A stretch of 64,000 bases of DNA, taken from contig CAIPQN010000042.1 in NCBI GenBank assembly GCA_903867225.1, forward strand, positions 1 to 64,000. Direction: 5' to 3'. The position numbers and the translations under genes are program-made. The notes under the pieces are model-generated. The model saw only the letters and a program-made list of their open reading frames with translations, did no database searches and was not told the origin of the DNA. The DNA is from an uncultured Pseudomonadota bacterium. Lineage in GTDB: Bacteria > Pseudomonadota > Gammaproteobacteria > Methylococcales > Methylomonadaceae. This document shows positions 43,635-55,452 of this stretch, piece by piece; within the stretch, counting starts at the first letter, position 1; the number at the start of each line of letters is the position of its first letter.

Positions 43635-44240
43635 TTATAATTTAGCTGCGTTGCTCGCTAAGTATTCTGCAACACCTGCTGGATTTGCATTCATACCTGC
43701 ATCGCCTTTATTCCAACCTGCTGGGCAAACTTCGCCGTGTTCTTCATGGAATTGAAGTGCGTCAACTAAACGAATTAACTCGTCAATGTTACGACCAATT
43801 GGTAAATCATTCACGATTTGAACGCGAACTTTGCCAGTGGTGTCGATTAAGAACGCGCCACGATATGCAATGCCCACGCCTTCAACAGCAACATCGTAAG
43901 CATTTACAATTGAATGACTTAAATCTGCTGCCATCGTATATTTCACTGCGCCAATACCACCTTGATTGATTGGTGTGTTGCGCCACGCGTTGTGTGTGAA
44001 ATGTGAATCAATAGACACTGCAATAACTTCCACATTACGTTTCGTGAATTCTTCCATGCGGTGATCTAATGCAATCAATTCGCTTGGGCAAACGAATGTG
44101 AAATCTAACGGATAGAAAAAGACAATCGCATATTTGCCTTTTGTGTTTTCTGCAAAATTAAATGAATCGACAATTTCACCTGTACCTAAAACGGCTGGAA
44201 CTGTGAAATCTGGGGCTTGTTTACCAACTAAAACACTCAT
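43635..44240 (-). CDS. 2-Cys peroxiredoxin (AhpC/Prx1 type)
   Basis: A 201-residue thiol peroxidase from ATG 44240 (MSVLVGKQAPDFTVPAVL). It has the peroxidatic cysteine in DFTFVCPSELIA, the resolving cysteine in GEVCPAGWN, and the GGIG region typical of typical 2-Cys peroxiredoxins. It reduces H2O2 and organic peroxides, needing thioredoxin or AhpF-type recycling; no reductase is adjacent. Four upstream codons in frame are less family-like. Confidence 0.95.
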   Translation of the reverse strand: MSVLVGKQAPDFTVPAVLGTGEIVDSFNFAENTKGKYAIVFFYPLDFTFVCPSELIALDHRMEEFTKRNVEVIAVSIDSHFTHNAWRNTPINQGGIGAVKYTMAADLSHSIVNAYDVAVEGVGIAYRGAFLIDTTGKVRVQIVNDLPIGRNIDELIRLVDALQFHEEHGEVCPAGWNKGDAGMNANPAGVAEYLASNAAKL

Positions 44241-44367
44241 GTAAAACTCCAATGATGAAAATAAAAATGACTGAAAACTGCCGTTTAAGGCGGACGGTGT
44301 AATTCTACACTAAAAAAGTCGGAAATCGTCTAGGTAAGCGCGAATTTATCGCGCTTACCGTTTGATT

Positions 44368-45372
44368 TTAGTTTACCGTTTTACCAGCTGTTGCAGGTAA
44401 TGTTGGCATTTTTTGTTTTGGGAATTCACCCGTTAAACCATTTAAAAACGCCACAATGTCAGCGGTTTCGTCTTTTGATAATTCTTTATTTAACTGCAAT
44501 TTTGCCATTACATTGACTGCTTCAGTTAATGTCGCGACTGAACCGTTATGGAAATAAGGTGCTGTTAAAGCAACATTTCGCAATGTTGGCACTTTCCAGA
44601 AATGTTCGTCTTCCACTTTTTTAGAAACATCAGCAACGCCTTTGTCTTTGGTGAAATGGAATTTTGCTTCTAAATAACCGTCACCATTCATTGGGAATTT
44701 TTGGAATACGCCCGCGCCATTAAACGCTGCGCCACTATGGCAACTGGTACAACCGAGTTCGGCAACTTTTTCCATGCCACGAATTTGTTGGGCAGATAAA
44801 GCTGATTTATCACCACCAATAAATTTATCATAAGGACTATTTGGTGTAATTAATGTGCGTTCATAAGCAGCAATCGCCTTAGTCGCAGTGTCTTTAGAAA
44901 TCGTATCTTTACCAAACGCTTTTTCAAATGCTTTTTGATAACCATCAATTGCTTTTAAACGCGCCACTACGTCATCCCAACTTTTCATTCCCATTTCAAC
45001 GGGACTTGTCACAGGACCTGCGGCTTGTGCTTCTAAAGTTGCTGCACGACCATCCCAAAATTGCACTTTGTTAAATGCCGAATTCCAAACAGTTGGCGCA
45101 CTTCTTCCGCCCAATTGTGCTTGTACGCCCATTGAATGTGAACGATTGTCTTCACCACCCAACATTGTGTTATGACAAGATGCACAAGACACCGTACCCG
45201 TTGAAGACAAACGCGGGTCGTGATAAAGCATTTGCCCCAATTCGATTTTTTCAGGCGTACTTGGATTGTCAGCAGGTTCTGGTGCTTGCGTTGGCAAAAC
45301 GTCCCACGCATTGGCGACTGACATCGAACCCACTAATGCTAATGCGGTAACTAATGAACGAATTTTAAACAT
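44368..45372 (-). CDS. Diheme cytochrome c peroxidase
   Basis: A 334-residue periplasmic enzyme from ATG 45372 with signal peptide ending ANA. Two heme motifs are present (CASCHN and CTSCHS), with family blocks GVQAQLGGRSAPTVWNSAFN, FWDGRAATLEAQAAGPV and VPTLRNVALTAPYFHNGS. It reduces H2O2 to water using cytochrome c. The longer frame starting at 45426 adds residues ahead of the signal peptide and is rejected. It is related to the three-heme protein at 46412. Confidence 0.93.
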   Translation of the reverse strand: MFKIRSLVTALALVGSMSVANAWDVLPTQAPEPADNPSTPEKIELGQMLYHDPRLSSTGTVSCASCHNTMLGGEDNRSHSMGVQAQLGGRSAPTVWNSAFNKVQFWDGRAATLEAQAAGPVTSPVEMGMKSWDDVVARLKAIDGYQKAFEKAFGKDTISKDTATKAIAAYERTLITPNSPYDKFIGGDKSALSAQQIRGMEKVAELGCTSCHSGAAFNGAGVFQKFPMNGDGYLEAKFHFTKDKGVADVSKKVEDEHFWKVPTLRNVALTAPYFHNGSVATLTEAVNVMAKLQLNKELSKDETADIVAFLNGLTGEFPKQKMPTLPATAGKTVN

Positions 45373-45539
45373 TTTTATCTCTCCTAAAATCTTATGAAAC
45401 ATCATTTTTATTTTTAGATTAAACACCCATGACGAAAAACATCGACATTTTTTGGGCGGTGGTAAACTTTAACACATTGAACAATCTAGTAGAATGTTTC
45501 AAAAAATGTGTTTTGATGTGTATCAATTAACCCGTAGAT

Positions 45540-46415
45540 TCACCGTAACAACGATTGAATAGCATTTTTTAAATCTGGATAAACAAACTCATAACCTAAC
45601 TCGTTAATTTTGACAGATGACACACGTTGTCCTCCAAGAATTAAATCAGCACGTTCACCAAGTAGCAATTTTAAAAACCAATCAGGCATATTGAAAAATG
45701 CAGGTCGAGAAATTATCGTGGCAAGTGTTTTTGTAAATTGGTCGTTGGTCACAGGTTCTGGAGCAGTCATGTTATATGCGCCTTCCGCTTCTGCGTTGTC
45801 CAATAACTTAATTACAATCGCAACGTAATCATCGATATGAATCCAACTCATCCATTGTTTGCCATCACCCATGCGCCCACCCAATCCCAATTTGAATGGC
45901 AGCAACATTTTTTTTAAAAAACCACCCGACGAATCCAAAACTAAGCTTGTTCGTAAAATACAAACTCGAATGCTCGATTTTAATGCCGCATTTTCCCAAG
46001 CTGAACACAACGTTGCACCAAAATCAGAGCCAGCCGATGTAGATTCATTTATAACCACGTCGCCCGTATTACCGTAGTAACCAATGGCAGAACCACTAAT
46101 TAACACTTTGGGTTTCTGATTAGCGATTTCAATATGTTTCACCAACTCTTCAGTCAACGTAACACGGCTATCCCATAAACATTTTTTACGCTCATCCGTC
46201 CACGGTTTATCGACAATCGGTTCACCTGCCAAATTTATTACGGCATCATAAATTGTTTCGGGTTGCCATTCACTTAACGATGCCATTGCCTTGCAGCCAT
46301 TCGGCACAAAAGCAGGTCTACGACTTAAAATTGTTAAATCATGACCGTTTTGAAGTAAAGCGGAACATAACTTTTTTCCAATTAAACCTGTTCCGCCAGT
46401 AATCAAAATTTTCAT
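45540..46415 (-). CDS. yfcH: TIGR01777-family SDR epimerase
   Basis: A 291-residue nucleotide-sugar-epimerase-like protein: ILITGGTGLIGKKLCSALLQ, VINLAGEPIVDKPWTDERKK, GSAIGYYGNTGDVVINE and WMSWIHIDDYVAI. The exact substrate is unknown. Genes of this family often accompany SRPBCC and photolyase or LOV genes in light-induced clusters. Here it is the last of three genes joined by ATGA overlaps behind the BLUF fusion. Confidence 0.88.
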   Translation of the reverse strand: MKILITGGTGLIGKKLCSALLQNGHDLTILSRRPAFVPNGCKAMASLSEWQPETIYDAVINLAGEPIVDKPWTDERKKCLWDSRVTLTEELVKHIEIANQKPKVLISGSAIGYYGNTGDVVINESTSAGSDFGATLCSAWENAALKSSIRVCILRTSLVLDSSGGFLKKMLLPFKLGLGGRMGDGKQWMSWIHIDDYVAIVIKLLDNAEAEGAYNMTAPEPVTNDQFTKTLATIISRPAFFNMPDWFLKLLLGERADLILGGQRVSSVKINELGYEFVYPDLKNAIQSLLR

Positions 46416-47776
46416 TCGTGGTTGCCCGTTAATGTTTTCAAGAACGCGACCACTTTATTCACTTCATCATTGGTGAAATCTTTATCGCGCTGAACTTTCG
46501 CCATGATGCGAACAGCATCTTCTAGTTTAGCCACTGAACCATCATGAAAATAAGGGTGCGTGAGTTCGACATTTCTCAATACGGGAACTTTGAAAAAATG
46601 ACGATCTTTTTCTTGTTTCGTGACGTTGAAACGTCCGTTATCCACTTCTGATAATTGCCCGCCGCGTAATTTGAAATAATCATTTTTTACGCCCATTTTT
46701 TCAAACGATAATCCACCCAATGCAGCTCCAAAATGGCAAGACGTACAATTTTCTTTGAATAACGCATAACCTGCTTTTTCATCGGCAGTTAAAATGGTGT
46801 TATTTCCGCGCAAATACTGATCAAAACGTGAATTTGGCGTAACTAACGATTTTTCAAATGTCGCAATCGCATCCGTCACGGTCGTTTTGGTTAATCCTTG
46901 CTCTGCGTACAATTTATCAAAAGCAATTTGATAATCAGAAACCTGTTTTAGTTTTTCGACTACATCATCCCAATTCGCGCCCATTTCTGCTGGACTTGCT
47001 ACAGGCCCCGCCGCTTGTTCTTGTAAATCTTTGGCACGACCATCCCAAAATTGAGCAATGTTATACATCGCGTTATAAACAGTAGGTGAATTGATAGGAC
47101 CTTGCTGACCTTTAATTCCAGTGGCTACTTTGGTTTGATCGGTGCCGCCTTTATTTAAATCGTGGCACGATGAACAGCTCAACGTGTTATCACCCGAAAG
47201 TAATTTTTCGTGGAAAAGTTTTTGACCGACAGCGACTTTTTCAGCATCTAAATCGACTTTTAATGGCAACGGTTGCACGGGTTCGCCTTTTAAATCATTT
47301 GCAGAATCTGCACTGAGCGGCAATTTTGCCCGTTCTTCCGAAATCCAATCAAGAATTAGTTTTTGTTCATCTGCACTTAATTTATCTGTCCAGTGCATCG
47401 AAAGATATAACGCAGGCGGCATACTGTTGTTTTTTAAAACGCTTTCCAATCGCGCCAACATTAACGGCGTAAAAGTATTTTCGCCGCTATAAAGCTGTTG
47501 AGATAAAACCAATCTATCACTCGCATTTTCAATATCTTTTGCCATGAGTTGTTTGGCGATGGGAAATGATGCGTAAATTGGCATTCGTGTCATGCCAGGC
47601 GAATGGCAATCGACGCATTTATTTTGAAAAATTTCTGATACTTTCGCAAATCGTTCTGAGCTTCCAGATACCACAGGAATTGGCTTATTTTCGCCCGAAA
47701 ATCCGAGCATATTTGAAATTGGCAACGCTAAACCAGCAAGTGCTAATGCAAATACATATAATGTTTTGTTATTCAT
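46412..47776 (-). CDS. Three-heme cytochrome c peroxidase-like protein
   Basis: A 454-residue exported protein about 120 residues longer than classical diheme peroxidases. It has an extra N-terminal heme motif (NKCVDCHSPGMTRMPIY) followed by the usual pair (CSSCHD, CTSCHF) and FWDGRAKDLQEQAAGPV and VPVLRNVELTHPYFHDGS. An additional heme domain is found in Yhj/QpoX-like peroxidases that take electrons directly from quinol. ATGA overlaps join it to the BLUF fusion upstream and the SDR gene downstream, so the three are translationally coupled. Confidence 0.88.
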   Translation of the reverse strand: MNNKTLYVFALALAGLALPISNMLGFSGENKPIPVVSGSSERFAKVSEIFQNKCVDCHSPGMTRMPIYASFPIAKQLMAKDIENASDRLVLSQQLYSGENTFTPLMLARLESVLKNNSMPPALYLSMHWTDKLSADEQKLILDWISEERAKLPLSADSANDLKGEPVQPLPLKVDLDAEKVAVGQKLFHEKLLSGDNTLSCSSCHDLNKGGTDQTKVATGIKGQQGPINSPTVYNAMYNIAQFWDGRAKDLQEQAAGPVASPAEMGANWDDVVEKLKQVSDYQIAFDKLYAEQGLTKTTVTDAIATFEKSLVTPNSRFDQYLRGNNTILTADEKAGYALFKENCTSCHFGAALGGLSFEKMGVKNDYFKLRGGQLSEVDNGRFNVTKQEKDRHFFKVPVLRNVELTHPYFHDGSVAKLEDAVRIMAKVQRDKDFTNDEVNKVVAFLKTLTGNHE

Positions 47777-50700
47777 GATGTTATTTCCGAAATGAATTGG
47801 TTTGTGTTCGAGTATTCAACATTTGCAAGTCCATATACTTGAGTCGATTCTTTAAGTGTGAATTCGCCTAAATGTTTAAATTCCCAAGATTCCGCTGCGA
47901 TTGTTTTAATGGATTCATCAATCGCCACGATTTTATTTGCATCTCGTGCAAACATACTCAAATAAACAGCTTGATCAACACTATCGCCTAAAACGGTGTA
48001 ATCCATTTTGATGGACGAACCGACATTACCTTCAATAATACCACCCGCCGCAAGTCCAAATCCGCAAGTTATCGTATTAAAAACAGGCGCGTTATTTTTC
48101 AATAATGTGAATTTTTCAAACGCATCGACACACGCCGCAACGGCAGCATCGACTTCGTTTTGTGTAAACTGCGCCACAATACAACCGCCTGCATATTTAG
48201 CTATTTGTCCGCCATATTGCACAAATGAGGTTGAACAAATTTCTAAATACTGATTAACGACACTAATAAGTTCTTCAGCAGAGAAATTTTTAGAAAGCGT
48301 TGTGAAATCAGTGATGCTGCCCGACACTAGAATTTTCCCTGTCTTTTTTATGGGAATCGTCAACGGATTCACGCCGTCCATCAAAAATTTAAGCAATGCT
48401 GGCTGCGTATAACGCCCGATGGTGCTATACAATTGTGCAATGTTTTGTAGCATCATGCTAATTGCTAATAACATCAAATCATTACTTTCATTAAGCGCAA
48501 CCGTTTTCATGCCCCAATCTGTGAAAAGCCGTTCTTCACATCCTGTTTCCGAACTCAAAATAGTGATGTCACTGTGGCGCGAATCACGACTAATTTTTTC
48601 CACTAACTCATCGACTATTTTTTCTTCACCTTCCAAAATTTGGAAAAAATAATCGTGTACCGAAATCAAAATTCCTGTCACATCGCGTTTTTGATTGTTA
48701 ATACTCGAAAGTCGTCCGATTTCAATAATATCTTCTTCGCTCAGCAAGGCATTTAATTTACTGACGTAAGTCAATCTTTTCATGCCTAATGAAACAGTAG
48801 GATTTTCTGTTTCAGATTGATGATTAATCAAATTACGAATCGCTTTTCCCATCAACCAGCCGCTTTGTACTAAGGCTTTCAAATCTTCTTGCGTGATAAT
48901 TTTCAATTCACAATCAGTCAAACAACGAACCGTTTCCACCCGACGATTTTGATGCAGCGGTAAAATCTCACCGAAATAATCACCTGCTGCTAATTCTCTG
49001 ATTTTGCGTCCATTTTGAACAACTTTTAAATTACCCGAATCAACCGCATAAGCCATTTCAGCGGCATCGCCTTCACGGAAAATTTCATCGCCCGCTTTGA
49101 AGTGCATTTTTTGTAAATGTGCCGTTTGAGCTTGCGCTAATACAGTAATATCATTGCGAAATGCGAGAACTAAAAACCAATCAATAATAATTCGTAGGTT
49201 TCTTTCCAAGCCAGGAACGGATAACAAATCAAACAACCGCGAAACAAACCACGCAGGTTCACCACTAAAAACAATGCCAGCCACACGGCATAAAGAGTAC
49301 ATTCCCATGTTGTAAGGTTTAAACAAATGTTTTCGCGCTTTGAACGCCCGTGAAGCATAACCTTGAGAACTCGCCCAAGCGTTAAATCCCGCGTAAAAAC
49401 CTAAATCGACTTGATCATTTGTGAAAATAAATTGAGCATCACGCATCGTTTGGCTGGTCTCGGTTATCCAGATATTTTCAAATGATTTAAGACGTAATTC
49501 ATCGTCAATTAAAAAAGGTTCGCTCAAATTTCCACGCCCAACAAACGGAATACTGGGGAATTTCAATGCGGCATTGACGACAAGACCTACCGATTGAATT
49601 CGTCCGCTTGAAAAAAACAAATCGCGCTGCGTAATACTGGTGATTTGTTCGTCCAAATGGTCAATCACACCCGCTTTTTTTAGATATTTATCACGCGCTT
49701 TTGAAATTTGTTTTTCAAAATCAGAACGAATTTGTCCTTGTTCTTCAAAAAGGTGAACACGCCAACCCAAATCACGCAACACCGAATACGCCGATTCTGC
49801 GGCGCGTAAAATTTGACTGATTTCAACCGCGATGGCTGAAGCACATTCGCCTACGCCAATCACTGCAAAGGTTAATAAACGAATTTTTTCTGATGAATCA
49901 TTACAAAATTCGGCTTCTTCAACCAAATCCAACACGCGCTGTCTAATACGAAGTGCGTCCGCCACCGAATCAATCGGACACGAATGTGCTTTCATGCCTG
50001 AAATGTTAAAAACGCTCGATTTTGGATTAAACGCAAGAATTAAACTGTCGTAATTTAGTTCAATAATTTCGTTATTTTTACGTTTAGCAAACACCTTTTG
50101 GTTGATTTCATCAATCGATTCTAACTGTCCGATAACGATATTGGTTTGCTGAACAATGCGTCGAAACGGATTCACCACATTTCCTGGTTGAACCGTTCCA
50201 CCAATCACTTCGGGTAAAAATGGTACAAACAAAAAGTTTGCTTGTTCATGTAACAAAGTGATTTTAACGTTTGAGTATTGCCCAATTAGTTTTTCAATTT
50301 TTAACGCAGCGTGTAACGCCGAAAGCCCACCCCCTACAATCACAATATGCGCGGGTTTATCTTTTGGAATTGGACGTTGTAAATGTCCTGCTGAATTGAT
50401 GAGGCACGACAAGACCACACCATAAAACAAAATATGCTCGGTTGGCGTTTCAGGCAAAAGTAAGGCAAAGATAGAAAATGCCGTTAGTAAAAAAAACGAC
50501 AACGGACGCAATAACACCCCCGCAATCATCAACACACCTGCACTCACTTCAACCAACGCCATCACAAGCGTAAAGGCTTCGGGATTCGCTGACAAAATGG
50601 GCAAATCGTAATAAGTAATAATGCCGATAGAGAGATTCGGCTGCATCACTTTAAAAAATACACCCAAGTACAATAACGTCGTTCCCGTCAAAATCCGCAT

Positions 50701-51426
50701 TATCGCTTGAGCGCGTTGACGCGGTTGATCTGCCAACCAAGATTGTAAATTTTGAAATACTGGAATTATCGGCAACGTTAAATAATGTCTGCCCGCACCT
50801 TGTAACACGAGATAAATACTTGCACCAACTAACGCGCCCGCATAAGCAAAAATAGCTTCACCGTATAAATAACCACCGAGAATACTTAGCAAAATCAGCA
50901 AAGCCGCAAATATCCGAACATAAAAACCAAAAAGAATCGTCAGTCCCAAAACAATTTCAGCCCAACGCAACCATGCCCAATCAGAACCCAGTTGTTTTAA
51001 ATCAAGGTCAGGGGCAAAAAATGTTGGAGATGTGAACGGTTCAATACCAAAACGAGGTTCGGCACCAAAAGCCGAAGATAATAAAATCCAAGCAAGACAT
51101 ACACGAAGAATGCGCGGAACATTATCGCCATAAGACGCTAATCGCGCTTGTAAATCGGGGAATAATTCACGCGCTCCTGTGAATCCTAACCAAACCCAAC
51201 CAATAATGAAAAGTGAAAACGCCGAAATCATAGACAAATTCAACGGCGAAAAATGTGAAAATAAATTGGGATGCGGTTTTGAATTCCATTCTTGGATTTG
51301 CTCGGGTGATAAAATCCAACGCTCATGTGCTAAAACAGCATCAGAAAAAAACAGCATCAAAAATAGGCTGCAAAATACAAATAATGTTTGCCGAACGTGT
51401 CGAGCATTTAAGTTGTCGATAATCAT
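47773..51426 (-). CDS. DoxX-like / NDH-2-like / cNMP-binding / BLUF / cyclase-like fusion
   Basis: A 1217-residue multidomain protein. In order: signal or first membrane helix (12-33); DoxX-like multi-pass region (60-350); NDH-2-like flavoprotein (359-770) with FAD motif IVIVGGGLSALHAA and a degenerate second nucleotide site (VIGVGECASAIAVE); cyclic-nucleotide-binding domain (772-870) with a phosphate-cassette-like YFGEIL and Arg829; BLUF (883-975) with Tyr887, Asn911, Gln929 (FFQILEG) and Trp971/Met973; class III cyclase-like domain (1028-1205). Residues 881-1205 resemble bPAC of Beggiatoa along the whole length. The cyclase metal aspartates are replaced (Ser1037, Gly1081), as are the transition-state Asn (Asp1151) and Arg (Tyr1155). 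The NDH-2 C-terminal GD motif is also missing (ITETSQT). It is probably a membrane-bound blue-light sensor with non-catalytic or altered outputs. Confidence 0.88.
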   Translation of the reverse strand: MIIDNLNARHVRQTLFVFCSLFLMLFFSDAVLAHERWILSPEQIQEWNSKPHPNLFSHFSPLNLSMISAFSLFIIGWVWLGFTGARELFPDLQARLASYGDNVPRILRVCLAWILLSSAFGAEPRFGIEPFTSPTFFAPDLDLKQLGSDWAWLRWAEIVLGLTILFGFYVRIFAALLILLSILGGYLYGEAIFAYAGALVGASIYLVLQGAGRHYLTLPIIPVFQNLQSWLADQPRQRAQAIMRILTGTTLLYLGVFFKVMQPNLSIGIITYYDLPILSANPEAFTLVMALVEVSAGVLMIAGVLLRPLSFFLLTAFSIFALLLPETPTEHILFYGVVLSCLINSAGHLQRPIPKDKPAHIVIVGGGLSALHAALKIEKLIGQYSNVKITLLHEQANFLFVPFLPEVIGGTVQPGNVVNPFRRIVQQTNIVIGQLESIDEINQKVFAKRKNNEIIELNYDSLILAFNPKSSVFNISGMKAHSCPIDSVADALRIRQRVLDLVEEAEFCNDSSEKIRLLTFAVIGVGECASAIAVEISQILRAAESAYSVLRDLGWRVHLFEEQGQIRSDFEKQISKARDKYLKKAGVIDHLDEQITSITQRDLFFSSGRIQSVGLVVNAALKFPSIPFVGRGNLSEPFLIDDELRLKSFENIWITETSQTMRDAQFIFTNDQVDLGFYAGFNAWASSQGYASRAFKARKHLFKPYNMGMYSLCRVAGIVFSGEPAWFVSRLFDLLSVPGLERNLRIIIDWFLVLAFRNDITVLAQAQTAHLQKMHFKAGDEIFREGDAAEMAYAVDSGNLKVVQNGRKIRELAAGDYFGEILPLHQNRRVETVRCLTDCELKIITQEDLKALVQSGWLMGKAIRNLINHQSETENPTVSLGMKRLTYVSKLNALLSEEDIIEIGRLSSINNQKRDVTGILISVHDYFFQILEGEEKIVDELVEKISRDSRHSDITILSSETGCEERLFTDWGMKTVALNESNDLMLLAISMMLQNIAQLYSTIGRYTQPALLKFLMDGVNPLTIPIKKTGKILVSGSITDFTTLSKNFSAEELISVVNQYLEICSTSFVQYGGQIAKYAGGCIVAQFTQNEVDAAVAACVDAFEKFTLLKNNAPVFNTITCGFGLAAGGIIEGNVGSSIKMDYTVLGDSVDQAVYLSMFARDANKIVAIDESIKTIAAESWEFKHLGEFTLKESTQVYGLANVEYSNTNQFISEITS

Positions 51427-51489
51427 AACATATAGCCTTCTAAATTAAATCTTTAGCTGCATTGGTTGCACATAAATCATCAGTTTTTC

Positions 51490-52116
51490 TTATTCGTCAC
51501 CACGCCCTTTAGGAATCATCATTTTGCCAAGTTGACGGGCTGTGAACCATGTAAATATCCGAAAACTTAACAACAAAGAAATGATAATTGCATAGAGTAA
51601 TGGTTCTGCAAGATTACCTTTGAGTTGCCAAAAGTAATGAATCACCGAAGCAATCGCTGCTAAATAAACCCAACGATGTAATTTTTTCCAATTTTTCCCT
51701 AATTTTTTCATCGCGAATTTTGATGACGTTATGCCAAGCAAAAAGACAATAATGTAAGCAAACACACCGAACCAAATATAAGGACTTTCGATAATATCCA
51801 TGATGATAAGTGACCAGTTAAAATTATGGTCAACCAGTAGATAAACTAAAAAATGCAACGAGGCATAAAAAAAAGCAAATAAACCAAATAATTGGCGATA
51901 TTCAGGCATACCGCGCCAGCGCGTGATAGTTTGAATAGGCGTTATAGTTAGCGCAATACATAAAAATCGCAATGACCAATCACCTAAACGAATATGCACG
52001 GCTTGAATCGGATTTGAACCTAAATTGTCGAAGACAACATCCAATCCCAACAATAATAACGGCAATAAACAAACAACTAATGTTACTGTCCATAAATTTT
52101 TGATTAACGCATTCAT
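51490..52116 (-). CDS. msrQ: MsrQ heme-binding membrane subunit
   Basis: MsrQ is the inner-membrane b-type cytochrome that passes electrons to MsrP for repair of oxidised methionine in periplasmic proteins. The 208-residue protein has about six membrane segments and the family pattern RFLCIALTITPIQTITRW, FAFFYASLHFLVYLLVD and KKLGKNWKKLHRWVYLAAIASVIHYFW, with heme-ligand histidines. It starts on the last base of the msrP stop codon (TAATG). Confidence 0.94.
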   Translation of the reverse strand: MNALIKNLWTVTLVVCLLPLLLLGLDVVFDNLGSNPIQAVHIRLGDWSLRFLCIALTITPIQTITRWRGMPEYRQLFGLFAFFYASLHFLVYLLVDHNFNWSLIIMDIIESPYIWFGVFAYIIVFLLGITSSKFAMKKLGKNWKKLHRWVYLAAIASVIHYFWQLKGNLAEPLLYAIIISLLLSFRIFTWFTARQLGKMMIPKGRGDE

Positions 52117-53066
52117 TAGAAAAAATGCCGTAAGTCCATGTCTTTATACAACGATGCTACTTGCTCACCGTAACCATTAAACAACTCAGTTTGCCGACGC
52201 GACGTAAAAAAACCACTGCCTAATAATCGTTCACTATTTTGACTCCAACGAGGATGGGAAACGGCTGGATTTACGTTTGCATAAAAACCATATTCTTGCG
52301 GCGCGGATTTATTCCACGTTGTCAAAGGTGGCTTTTTCAATAATTCAATTTTGACAATCGCTTTAATACTTTTGAATCCATATTTCCAAGGCACAACTAA
52401 ACGTAACGGTGCGCCATTTTGTTTTGGTAATTTTTCGCCATACATTCCCACCGCCAGCATCGTTAAAGGGTGCATTGCTTCATCGATTCGCAAACCTTCA
52501 ACATAAGGAAAATCCAACATTTTTTTCTCACGTTGATTTGGCATTGTTTCAGGTTGTTCAATCGTTGTGAATTTTACAAATTGCGCGGTTGAAAGTGGTT
52601 TTGCCATTTTCAATAAATTCGCCAATGAAAAACCAACCCAAGGCACAACCATTGACCAACCTTCAACACAGCGAAAACGGTAAATACGTTCTTCAAGCGT
52701 TTGTTGACTTAAAATATCTTCTAAATGATAAGTCGCAGGTTTTTCAACTTCACCGCTTATTTCAACTGACCACGGATCAATCACCATCGATTGCGCCAAT
52801 TTAGTGGAATCATCTTTGTTAAACGTAAATTCGTAATAGTTTGTATAGTTTTTAACTAATTCAACAGGTGTTGGTTTTAAAGAATTATCTGGCGTTGCGC
52901 TTTTTGCTAAATTTGAGAAAACTTTATTATCGCCAGCAAAAGCAGAAGGTATATTCGCACCTGCCAAGGTTAAACCTAACATTTGGATAAATTTACGTCG
53001 CTCTTGGAAAATTTCAGGTGGCGTAATTTCACTGCTCGGAATGTCTTTTTCTGTTTTTATTATCAT
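52116..53066 (-). CDS. msrP: Protein-methionine-sulfoxide reductase catalytic subunit MsrP
   Basis: A 316-residue molybdopterin enzyme that reduces methionine sulfoxide in periplasmic proteins. It has a twin-arginine signal (RRKFIQMLGLTLAG), the molybdenum-ligand cysteine in YRFRCVEGWSMVVPWVGF, and KYGFKSIKAIVKIELL. msrQ follows with a one-base overlap. Placement within a cluster of light- and redox-sensing genes suggests induction by photo-oxidative stress. Confidence 0.95.
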   Translation of the reverse strand: MIIKTEKDIPSSEITPPEIFQERRKFIQMLGLTLAGANIPSAFAGDNKVFSNLAKSATPDNSLKPTPVELVKNYTNYYEFTFNKDDSTKLAQSMVIDPWSVEISGEVEKPATYHLEDILSQQTLEERIYRFRCVEGWSMVVPWVGFSLANLLKMAKPLSTAQFVKFTTIEQPETMPNQREKKMLDFPYVEGLRIDEAMHPLTMLAVGMYGEKLPKQNGAPLRLVVPWKYGFKSIKAIVKIELLKKPPLTTWNKSAPQEYGFYANVNPAVSHPRWSQNSERLLGSGFFTSRRQTELFNGYGEQVASLYKDMDLRHFF

Positions 53067-53078
53067 GGTGAAAACCTG

Positions 53079-53909
53079 CTATTTCTTGCCTTTTGGAATC
53101 CAGCTCAATAACTGCATTATTTTTCGTTCAGTAATGAACGCAAGTGAAAACAATTGCACAAAATTTTCAGCTTCTACCAAATCAAGCCCTAAATTTTCAG
53201 GGACTAATTCTTTGCGAGTCTTAAACATTTTGTCCCAAATGGCTAAAACAATGCCGTAATTGCTGTCATGTTCTGAACGCAAAGTAGAATGATGAGTACG
53301 ATGTAACGCGGGGGTAATGATAAATTGTGAAATTTTATCTTCGTTTGGAACTTCGATATTCGCGTGATGAAAGAAGATGAAAAATAATTCAATAATTTCA
53401 ATCGACAAAACAACGTAAGCATTTACGCCAATAAAAATTACGAATGCACATTTGTAGACAATTTCGAGCAATAAATCAAAAACGTGAAAACGAAATCCCG
53501 TTGAAACATTGAAACTTTTATCGCAATGATGGATTTTGTGAAATCGCCACAACCATTCATATTTATGACTTGCACGATGCCACGCATAAATCGCTAAATC
53601 AAACAGTGCAAAGGCAAGTAACCATTTGATAATTCCTTCATCTAAATTCGATAACAAACCGTAAGACGAAAATTGTTGAGCAACAAAAAATAGCGATGAA
53701 GCTCGCAATAAACTCAAAATCACATTGTTGACTACAAATGCAGTGGTATTAGTGACGAACGATGTTTTATAGTTTTCGGCGGAAAACTGGCGATACGGTT
53801 TTTTCTTTTCAACGGCAAGCAAAAAGAAAAACGCTACAATCGCAAGCCCAAAAAGAATTTGAGTAAATACCGCGCCGCCATTATTCGTAACAAGTTCTGT
53901 TTCATTCAT
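53079..53909 (-). CDS. Sterol desaturase / fatty acid hydroxylase-family membrane enzyme
   Basis: A 276-residue membrane protein of the diiron hydroxylase superfamily. The histidine clusters are HRASH, WRFHKIHHCDKSFN, FFHHANIEVP and HRTHHSTLRSEHDSNYG. These enzymes hydroxylate or desaturate lipids using O2. Start ATG 53909 follows AAGGTG; a GTG one codon earlier is possible. In this cluster it may remodel membrane lipids in response to light or oxidative stress; the substrate cannot be deduced. Confidence 0.88.
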   Translation of the reverse strand: MNETELVTNNGGAVFTQILFGLAIVAFFFLLAVEKKKPYRQFSAENYKTSFVTNTTAFVVNNVILSLLRASSLFFVAQQFSSYGLLSNLDEGIIKWLLAFALFDLAIYAWHRASHKYEWLWRFHKIHHCDKSFNVSTGFRFHVFDLLLEIVYKCAFVIFIGVNAYVVLSIEIIELFFIFFHHANIEVPNEDKISQFIITPALHRTHHSTLRSEHDSNYGIVLAIWDKMFKTRKELVPENLGLDLVEAENFVQLFSLAFITERKIMQLLSWIPKGKK

Positions 53910-53933
53910 CACAACACCTTCTAAAATTTATAA

Positions 53934-54389
53934 TTATTTCGACATTGCGTTCAATAAACCGTTCAATTCTTTGATTTCATTCGTTGCGTTTACTTGTTCT
54001 GTGATGTCGTATTGCACACCCAAATAGTAAAGAACTCGTTTTTTCTTATCGAATAAGGGTGTGATTTTTAAACGATTATGAAACAACGTGCCGTCTTTTT
54101 TGTAATTGCGTAAGGTGACTTCTAACGCTTCATTGTTTTTCATTGCTTCAGCAATTTCATAACGTGCTGGCTGGTCACGGTCTTCGCCTTGCAAAAAACG
54201 ACAATTATGCCCAATGATGTCTTCCTGGCTATAACCTGTTAAACGCTCAAACGCTTTGTTTGCATAAACAATCGGCGCATCTTCTAAATCGGGGTCTGCC
54301 AACGTCACACCATTAACACATTCGTCCAAAATAGCCGAAAGTATTTGTGGAATTAAACCGCTTGAATCTTTTTCAACAATAAAAGGCAT
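53934..54389 (-). CDS. Short LOV blue-light photoreceptor
   Basis: A 151-residue protein consisting of one PAS/LOV domain with a C-terminal helix (J-alpha-like; ITEQVNATNEIKELNGLLNAM). It has the canonical flavin-adduct cysteine, Cys63, in GHNCRFLQGEDRDQ, plus NGVTLADPDLEDAPIVYANKAFERLTGY. Short LOV proteins such as PplR1 of Pseudomonas putida act by binding a MerR-type light repressor (LitR); no LitR gene is visible here. Its presence beside a BLUF fusion in the same gene cluster is noteworthy. Confidence 0.93.
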   Translation of the reverse strand: MPFIVEKDSSGLIPQILSAILDECVNGVTLADPDLEDAPIVYANKAFERLTGYSQEDIIGHNCRFLQGEDRDQPARYEIAEAMKNNEALEVTLRNYKKDGTLFHNRLKITPLFDKKKRVLYYLGVQYDITEQVNATNEIKELNGLLNAMSK

Positions 54390-54420
54390 AACATCAACTC
54401 CAAAAAATTAAGTTTAAAAA

Positions 54421-54906
54421 TTAGTGACATTCAGCAACGACTAAATTTTTGATATTTTCAACCACGTTTTCTGCGCCATCTTCGATAGCAACGCGAATCA
54501 GTTTTTGAAATGGACGCATAAACACATCAAGCTCAAGCAACTCAAACCGAAAGGTGAGTTTTGTTGGCGTTGTATTTTCATCGCATTCAAACAAATAGGT
54601 GTGCTTGTAAGGTGCATTGATGCCTTGAAAACCAAACAATGTATGTGGCTGGTAATCTGTAATTTCAAAAACAGATTCAATTTTTGCCCCATTATCTTTA
54701 CGAATTTGTTTTGCTTTTGCGCCAACAGAAACGTTTTTGTTGTCGTCTAATGGTTCAAAATGAACGACTTCAACAGCCCATTTTGGGTAGTTCTCAAAAA
54801 AATTTTCACCGACAAAATGAAAAACGCGATCTATCGTTTTATCGATGCTAACAGTTGCTTCACCCAAAATAGGACTAGAAGAATCAAACGGAAACTTGAG
54901 TTGCAT
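54421..54906 (-). CDS. SRPBCC (START-like) family protein
   Basis: A 161-residue protein with the START/Bet v 1-like pattern: VSIDKTIDRVFHFVGENFFENYPKW, VGAKAKQIRKDNGAKIESVFEITDYQP and a C-terminal long helix (PFQKLIRVAIEDGAENVVENIKNLV). These proteins bind hydrophobic ligands. SRPBCC genes recur next to LOV or photolyase genes in light-inducible operons. It lies 28 bases from the globin gene and 32 from the LOV gene, consistent with one operon. Confidence 0.85.
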   Translation of the reverse strand: MQLKFPFDSSSPILGEATVSIDKTIDRVFHFVGENFFENYPKWAVEVVHFEPLDDNKNVSVGAKAKQIRKDNGAKIESVFEITDYQPHTLFGFQGINAPYKHTYLFECDENTTPTKLTFRFELLELDVFMRPFQKLIRVAIEDGAENVVENIKNLVVAECH

Positions 54907-54933
54907 AAAAATATCCTTGTTGAAAGAAAACCA

Positions 54934-55428
54934 TTACTTGCCTAGCAAACTGTTACGTCCACTTTCTGCAAAGGATACAATATCAGCCGTCAAATCCCCA
55001 TCAATTTCTAGCTCTTGTAGAGCGTTTCTCAAATGTTCAATTGCAACATCGTAATGTGAATCTTCAGGCATGAACTTCAACAAATGGCTGTGACTATCAC
55101 ACAATAATTTAGAACTGGGATTATCTTGGGAAATTATGTAACCGAAAAACGCCAAACTTGAATCAGGATATAACTCTTTGTCTTTAAATCTAGCAAACGC
55201 GGACATAAAAAAACGAGTCAGTAACGCTTTAAATTCGTCACCACTCGTTGAATTATGTTGAGAGATAAATTTTGTTAATGATTTTAGTGTATCAAGTTGT
55301 TCTTTTCGTCCGTCGTCACAAAAAAAACGGGTGACACGATAATCATCGATTATTTTTTGATAAAAAACCTCAACTAATCGATTAAATTTTTCATCGTTTA
55401 AACGTTCATACAAACTTAAATCACTCAT
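54934..55428 (-). CDS. Truncated-hemoglobin-like protein (second copy)
   Basis: A 164-residue globin from ATG 55428, preceded by GAGGA six bases upstream. Features shared with the globin at 34620 are LYERLNDEKFNRLVEVFYQKIIDDYRVTRFF at the start and SHSHLLKFMPEDSHYDVAIEHL in the heme region, but the middle is diverged and longer. It is probably a group I-like globin binding O2, NO or CO. As the first gene of the light/redox cluster it may act as a gas sensor or NO scavenger. Confidence 0.8.
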   Translation of the reverse strand: MSDLSLYERLNDEKFNRLVEVFYQKIIDDYRVTRFFCDDGRKEQLDTLKSLTKFISQHNSTSGDEFKALLTRFFMSAFARFKDKELYPDSSLAFFGYIISQDNPSSKLLCDSHSHLLKFMPEDSHYDVAIEHLRNALQELEIDGDLTADIVSFAESGRNSLLGK

Positions 55429-55452
55429 CGTAAATCCTCGCGTTGTACCCAA

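Follow-up and report, generated by a model that had tools for sequence, protein, structure and literature searches.

A five-domain BLUF fusion protein of methane- and ammonia-oxidising bacteria as a candidate blue-light membrane switch

In mycobacteria, the DoxX-SodA-SseA complex ties a DoxX membrane part to redox partners. Photoactivated adenylyl cyclases (PACs) such as OaPAC and bPAC combine a BLUF sensor, a connector and a class III cyclase fold; according to the excerpted text of PMC10837130, the active site of the cyclase lies at a dimer interface, with acidic residues for metal ions, and the alpha3 helices and handles serve as regulatory input. The stretch of DNA described here (the window: 64,000 nucleotides at the start of contig CAIPQN010000042.1, from an uncultured member of the Methylomonadaceae) carries a minus-strand gene at 47773..51426 in which parts of both kinds occur in one chain of 1217 residues, together with an NDH-2-like domain and a cyclic-nucleotide-binding (cNMP) domain. 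Our preferred reading, to which we give a probability of roughly 0.55, is that the protein would act as a blue-light membrane switch, in which a pseudo-cyclase passes the BLUF signal by direct contact to the NDH-2-like/DoxX part.

The earlier note on this DNA had described five regions in a fixed order on this one frame, and that order was confirmed. First comes a tandem DoxX-like membrane bundle with predicted helices (residues 28-350; 50377..51345), in which two stretches matched Pfam DoxX over the cut-off (28.9 bits versus 23.6). It is followed by an NDH-2-like domain with altered motifs for flavin adenine dinucleotide (FAD) and nicotinamide adenine dinucleotide (NAD) (residues 356-745; 49192..50361), whose two-dinucleotide-domain fold was recognised by fold matching, and by a cNMP-binding-like domain (residues 766-870; 48817..49131; 62.1 bits versus 27.5) with a Glu at 832, a position for which the alignment numbering is shifted by one. 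The C-terminal half forms a single unit of BLUF domain (residues 882-974; 48505..48783; 88.4 bits versus 25), connector (residues 985-1028; 48343..48474) and pseudo-cyclase with a class III cyclase fold (residues 1029-1205; 47812..48342), all likewise on the minus strand. The domain search that the note had proposed as a check thus recovered both the BLUF and the cNMP-binding profiles above their Pfam cut-offs. An assembly error or an artificial joining of frames, the other worry raised there, was ruled out by recurrence of the layout in many genomes and in named strains. In the open-licence literature, searched at the level of abstracts, no described protein with the five-domain layout was found; in what was available of PMC9020721, DoxX is merely a neighbouring gene, and among the BLUF proteins of a Methylococcales species in the consulted part of PMC4844311, none has this layout.

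Compared with its nearest described relatives, the protein is familiar in its parts and unusual in their state. Its C-terminal half has the same fold as OaPAC and bPAC, with 36-39% identity over about 325 residues, but it has lost the catalytic residues and is placed behind a membrane protein. Unlike NDH-2 enzymes, the NDH-like part has a changed GD aspartate and changed third glycines, and forms one covalent chain with DoxX bundles and sensor domains. As in the DoxX-SodA-SseA complex, DoxX occurs with redox partners, here as peroxidase-type, peroxiredoxin and Msr-like genes in the same row, whereas the covalent joining of two DoxX bundles to an NDH-like domain and a light sensor differs from that system. 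Also close to it are unfused three-domain proteins of about 880-940 residues, homologous to window residues 1-870 at 41-62% identity; these have no BLUF or cyclase domain, carry a canonical-looking cNMP cassette and, in Methylococcales genomes, are accompanied by a separate PAC.

The family is conserved. Full or nearly full-length proteins were found in six of 61 relatives' genomes (the window's own included), and one more had a cut copy. Residues 1-764 used as the query matched 223 proteins, of which the best 120 were taken; after P0002 was dropped as identical to the query, the 120 rows (query plus 119) comprised 87 proteins above 1000 residues, 30 of 800-1000 and 3 shorter ones. A query of residues 1-355, aimed at DoxX tandems that lack the NDH part, gave 47 matches, several with NDH domains or on short contigs. 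A scan of one genome per species yielded 59 loci, mostly in Methylococcales, with other carriers in Crenothrix, Nitrosomonas, one Methylocapsa and a few alphaproteobacteria. The counts of fused and unfused rows below refer to a set of 172 (120 fused and 52 unfused) that takes in 52 of the 59 loci, seven with frames of 700 residues or fewer being omitted; L051 and P0014 are truncated and so count as unfused only formally, and P0112 and P0113 lack the cNMP domain. The N-terminal part occurs in 54 of 311 Methylococcales genomes (36 fused, 14 unfused and 4 cut and unclassed), so that the five-domain order does recur across the group. The cut genes of G076, G091, G171 and G176 stand outside the fused and unfused counts, as does the cut fused tail of G143.

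Sensor and cyclase have fared very differently in these proteins. BLUF Tyr, Asn and Gln are kept in 120/120 fused rows, and Trp and Met in all 118 that are ungapped there (2 gaps); the BLUF domain that the earlier note had placed in the window protein carries every signature residue, from which we infer its photochemistry. Six sites of the class III cyclase, which we take to be the two metal aspartates, the purine-site Lys and Thr and the transition-state Asn and Arg, read D-K-D-T-N-R in 66 of 92 BLUF-cyclase matches; the first metal Asp is kept in 69, and the remaining 23 resemble fragments of fused proteins. In the window protein the six sites are S-K-G-T-D-Y, which leaves S, G, D and Y where a PAC has its metal and transition-state residues. 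All six sites are aligned in 115 of the 120 fused rows (five rows are short of one site). Of these 115, none has the first metal Asp and none has both; the second Asp remains in 16, the Asn in 18 and the Arg in 16. The purine-site Lys (67) and Thr (109) are commoner. These sites were also read in 86 of the 87 proteins above 1000 residues, P0009 being too short at its C-terminus. Judged by these residues, it is close to certain that catalysis has been lost in the fused cyclase domain, and an active PAC was ruled out as a candidate.

A parallel change is seen in the phosphate cassette of the cNMP domain. Unfused proteins have a cassette like FGEIALLS..RTATV, in which 47 of 48 rows carry Ala two positions behind the Arg (the Ala of P0097 is not a trustworthy match), whereas the fused cassette resembles FGEI.P.H..R.ETV and reads R-x-E/D in place of R-x-A in 120/120 rows (Glu in 116, Asp in 4). 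A stricter pattern gave E in 110, D in 4 and 6 unmatched among the 120 fused rows, and A in 42, I in 1 and 9 unmatched among the 52 unfused ones. The acid should repel a cyclic phosphate. These two changes bear on the mechanism that the earlier note had suggested, in which a working photoactivated cyclase and cyclic-nucleotide binding are coupled in one chain to a membrane redox domain: what survives of it is a conserved BLUF domain in the same chain as the membrane part, while the cyclase and the remodelled pocket no longer support their share. A version in which the cyclase does work, and its product binds the cNMP domain of the same chain to control the NDH-2 part, could appeal to the OaPAC/bPAC fold, to the recognition of cNMP_binding by Pfam and to the functional look of the same parts in unfused relatives. 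Against the missing aspartates and the ubiquitous acid, though, we regard it as very improbable.

The pseudo-cyclase nonetheless shows purifying selection. Its ratio of nonsynonymous to synonymous substitution rates (dN/dS) is 0.10-0.24 in five pairs, compared with 0.04-0.17 for the other domains where defined (five of 25 pairs were undefined). Because of these values the pseudo-cyclase is, as far as its codons tell, not simply decaying, and together with the conserved connector they speak for an ongoing structural role. Median identities among fused rows are 76% for DoxX, 73% for the connector, 71% for BLUF, 68% for the cNMP domain, 65% for the FAD-like part and 49% for the cyclase. It is conceivable that the pseudo-cyclase and cNMP domain are only a dimer scaffold, with BLUF acting through the haem protein encoded next door or through another cyclase; the low conservation of the pseudo-cyclase and the presence of the haem protein gene as the next gene in 20/30 fused loci would fit this. 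The well-conserved BLUF-cyclase connector and a pseudo-cyclase dN/dS well below 1 argue the other way, and we consider a pure scaffold unlikely.

The membrane half raises a question of its own. Within the fused protein the tandem DoxX is the most conserved part, and numerous charged residues in it are invariant (39 rows). None of the 172 rows has the Asp of the FAD GD motif at aligned position 657 of the NDH-like part; a GD pair stands elsewhere nearby in 8, and N682 and W684 are invariant instead. The first motif has Ala in place of its third Gly in 118 fused rows (2 gaps), and among the 52 unfused rows it has Ala there in 41 and Gly in 11; at the second motif the third glycine is Gly in only 4 of the 172. 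The window protein has Ala at both, and so shows neither the full GxGxxG nor the GD motif that NDH-2 enzymes use for FAD. By comparison, GD and the third glycines are kept in 13/13 NDH-2-type controls from related genomes (19 loci were tried for control frames, and 13 gave one). The earlier description of this part as an NDH-2-like flavoprotein therefore holds for the fold and not for the signature FAD/NAD residues, and because the canonical FAD Asp is absent, oxidation of NADH (reduced NAD) by the domain is at most a putative activity. One could go further and regard the domain as a pseudo-enzyme with neither usual FAD binding nor NADH oxidation, leaving the DoxX bundle as the true output. 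The family-wide absence of the GD Asp, its retention in the controls, the mostly changed third glycines and the conservation of DoxX all favour such a view; the NDH-2 fold is still there, and we think it improbable.

Evidence as to where the parts came from is provided by the unfused relatives. In six loci (L067, L068, L069, L070, L072 and L073) a separate BLUF-cyclase gene comes next after the three-domain DoxX/NDH-like/cNMP gene, in the same orientation; five of these adjoining PACs are complete and keep all six catalytic sites, while that of L067 runs off the end of its contig. L065 and L066 have a complete PAC in the opposite orientation, at a distance of about 1.6 kb. Among the Methylococcales genomes, a separate PAC accompanies the unfused gene in 14/14 (the G103 copy is missing its start); of the 257 that lack the membrane gene, 2 have one, and one further BLUF-cyclase match there is a cut fused tail (Fisher p 1.3e-21 for 14/14 versus 2/257, a value that ignores shared ancestry). 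No complete separate PAC was found in any of the 36 fused Methylococcales genomes, G144 having only a 256-residue piece on another contig; the separate PAC is thus exchanged for the fused one. The catalytic set is complete in 16/16 genomes with standalone PACs (the G104 copy is cut before part of the BLUF domain). Two unfused gene carriers, G102 and G104, have two BLUF-cyclase matches each. The pairing of a three-domain protein with a complete separate PAC suggests the source of the two halves.

The junction and the trees are consistent with this. Unfused proteins stop shortly past the cNMP domain, and the fused BLUF domain starts where the PAC has its initial Met, a residue retained in 53/120 fused rows. 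The trees are quick ones, built with no bootstrap. Fused rows group in a single clade in the N-part tree (47 rows; SH-aLRT, the Shimodaira-Hasegawa-like approximate likelihood ratio test, 100), and the pseudo-cyclases form one clade beside the intact PACs in the C-part tree (69 rows; SH-aLRT 99). The C-terminal half is a descendant of a PAC, and the fusion has an apparent single origin. The genus-level group g48 is mixed, with G092 fused and G094-G098 unfused. The fused protein also occurs in Nitrosomonas (L049, L075 and L078); because these copies show about 66-67% identity along the length of the window protein and nest within the methanotroph clade, transfer between methane and ammonia oxidisers is suggested.

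From the trees and gene neighbourhoods, the following course of events may be proposed. An ancestral three-domain membrane protein (DoxX, NDH-2-like and cyclic AMP (cAMP)-binding) would have had as its partner a separate PAC producing cAMP in the light, until the PAC gene was joined, once, to the end of the three-domain gene. After the fusion, the residues for metal and transition state would have disappeared from the cyclase, and an acid would have replaced Ala in the cAMP pocket. Because of these two changes, the cAMP relay is predicted to be dead at both ends, cAMP being neither made nor bound, and a bypass of the messenger in the fused protein is probable. Light would then shift the dimer of BLUF, connector and pseudo-cyclase and so alter the membrane module, likely changing electron flow to quinone or to the neighbouring haem protein; the nature of this output is a proposal, and we infer its identity and direction. 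The fuller account, in which a PAC and a cAMP-regulated membrane flavoprotein were fused, the second messenger was removed and light gained direct allosteric control of a respiratory-type module, we hold more tentatively, at a little under even odds.

Several observations weigh against the switch and its proposed history. The two halves have their closest unfused relatives in different organisms (L055 and P0097 for the N part; P0137, P0140 and P0147 for the C part). Because the fused rows belong to one clade, every residue loss goes back to a single lineage, and the counts are non-independent, recording one origin and long upkeep. Two of the 115 fused rows keep three of the four metal/transition-state residues, the C-part structure model is poor in its cNMP region, and the NDH-like domain may be FAD-less. 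No PAC match was found in the four Methylococcales genomes with a cut gene of unclassed state, and no BLUF-cyclase in the genomes of 5 of 12 unfused loci, all five outside Methylococcales (the other seven, in Methylococcaceae, repeat genomes of the first set). The notion that unfused carriers always have their own PAC was accordingly rejected, as it holds in 14/14 Methylococcales genomes and fails in those 5 of 12. The alphaproteobacterial carriers L060, L063 and L071 have no BLUF-cyclase and show 28-38 candidate cyclase-like matches on a first look, for which reason another cyclase may feed the cNMP domain there.

The gene lies within a minus-strand row (43635-55452) that includes PAS/LOV-like, lipid-transport-like, fatty acid hydroxylase, MsrP/MsrQ-like, two CCP_MauG, epimerase and peroxiredoxin genes. 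Immediately downstream, and overlapping it by 4 bases in keeping with the coupling that the earlier note had pointed out, is a gene for a haem protein of 454 residues with Pfam Haem_bd and CCP_MauG domains (46412..47776, minus strand). Of the 30 fused loci with 500 or more bases of downstream sequence, 20 have this gene next on the same strand; among the remaining ten, L033 and L056 have a next frame whose beginning resembles a truncated copy. The haem protein is likely a co-transcribed partner. Directly upstream (51490-53066, minus strand) are genes for a Ferric_reduct membrane protein and a molybdopterin oxidoreductase, overlapping by one base and resembling the MsrP/MsrQ methionine sulfoxide repair pair. 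A PAS-fold protein of 151 residues (53934-54389, minus strand) carries NCRFLQ at residue 62, presumably the LOV cysteine motif, and is predicted to be a second blue-light sensor in the row. DNA photolyase genes lie near the fused gene on the minus strand in a methanotroph locus (L042:3204-4571) and a Nitrosomonas locus (L078:14174-15475), both of which also have a PAS/LOV-like gene. Given the photolyase, PAS/LOV-like, peroxidase-type and repair genes, the neighbours would form a light and oxidative-stress gene set.

As for the hosts, an AMO (ammonia monooxygenase)/pmoA-family protein is encoded on the window's contig (G000:C42:142386-143096), which fits a methanotroph. The idea that carriers are always copper-monooxygenase bacteria was not supported, as PF02461 was present in 12/21 carrier genomes. 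Nine genomes gave no match, among them the alphaproteobacteria that carry L060, L063 and L071 and the genome of L077; because two Nitrosomonas and three Methylococcaceae assemblies also belong to the nine, some misses probably reflect assembly incompleteness.

We know of no molecular sensor for the light inhibition of methane and ammonia oxidisers. If the fuller account is true, these bacteria would possess a built-in blue-light switch on their electron supply, and the fused protein is a candidate sensor for the light inhibition of methanotrophy, which is mentioned in the portion of PMC12211021 consulted. The family would also preserve the before and after of a signalling circuit, a separate PAC with a predicted cAMP-regulated membrane protein on the one hand and a single chain with both cAMP sites lost on the other, so that the turning of a sensor enzyme into a purely mechanical relay becomes testable. 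Optogenetics, finally, may gain a light-controlled membrane protein.
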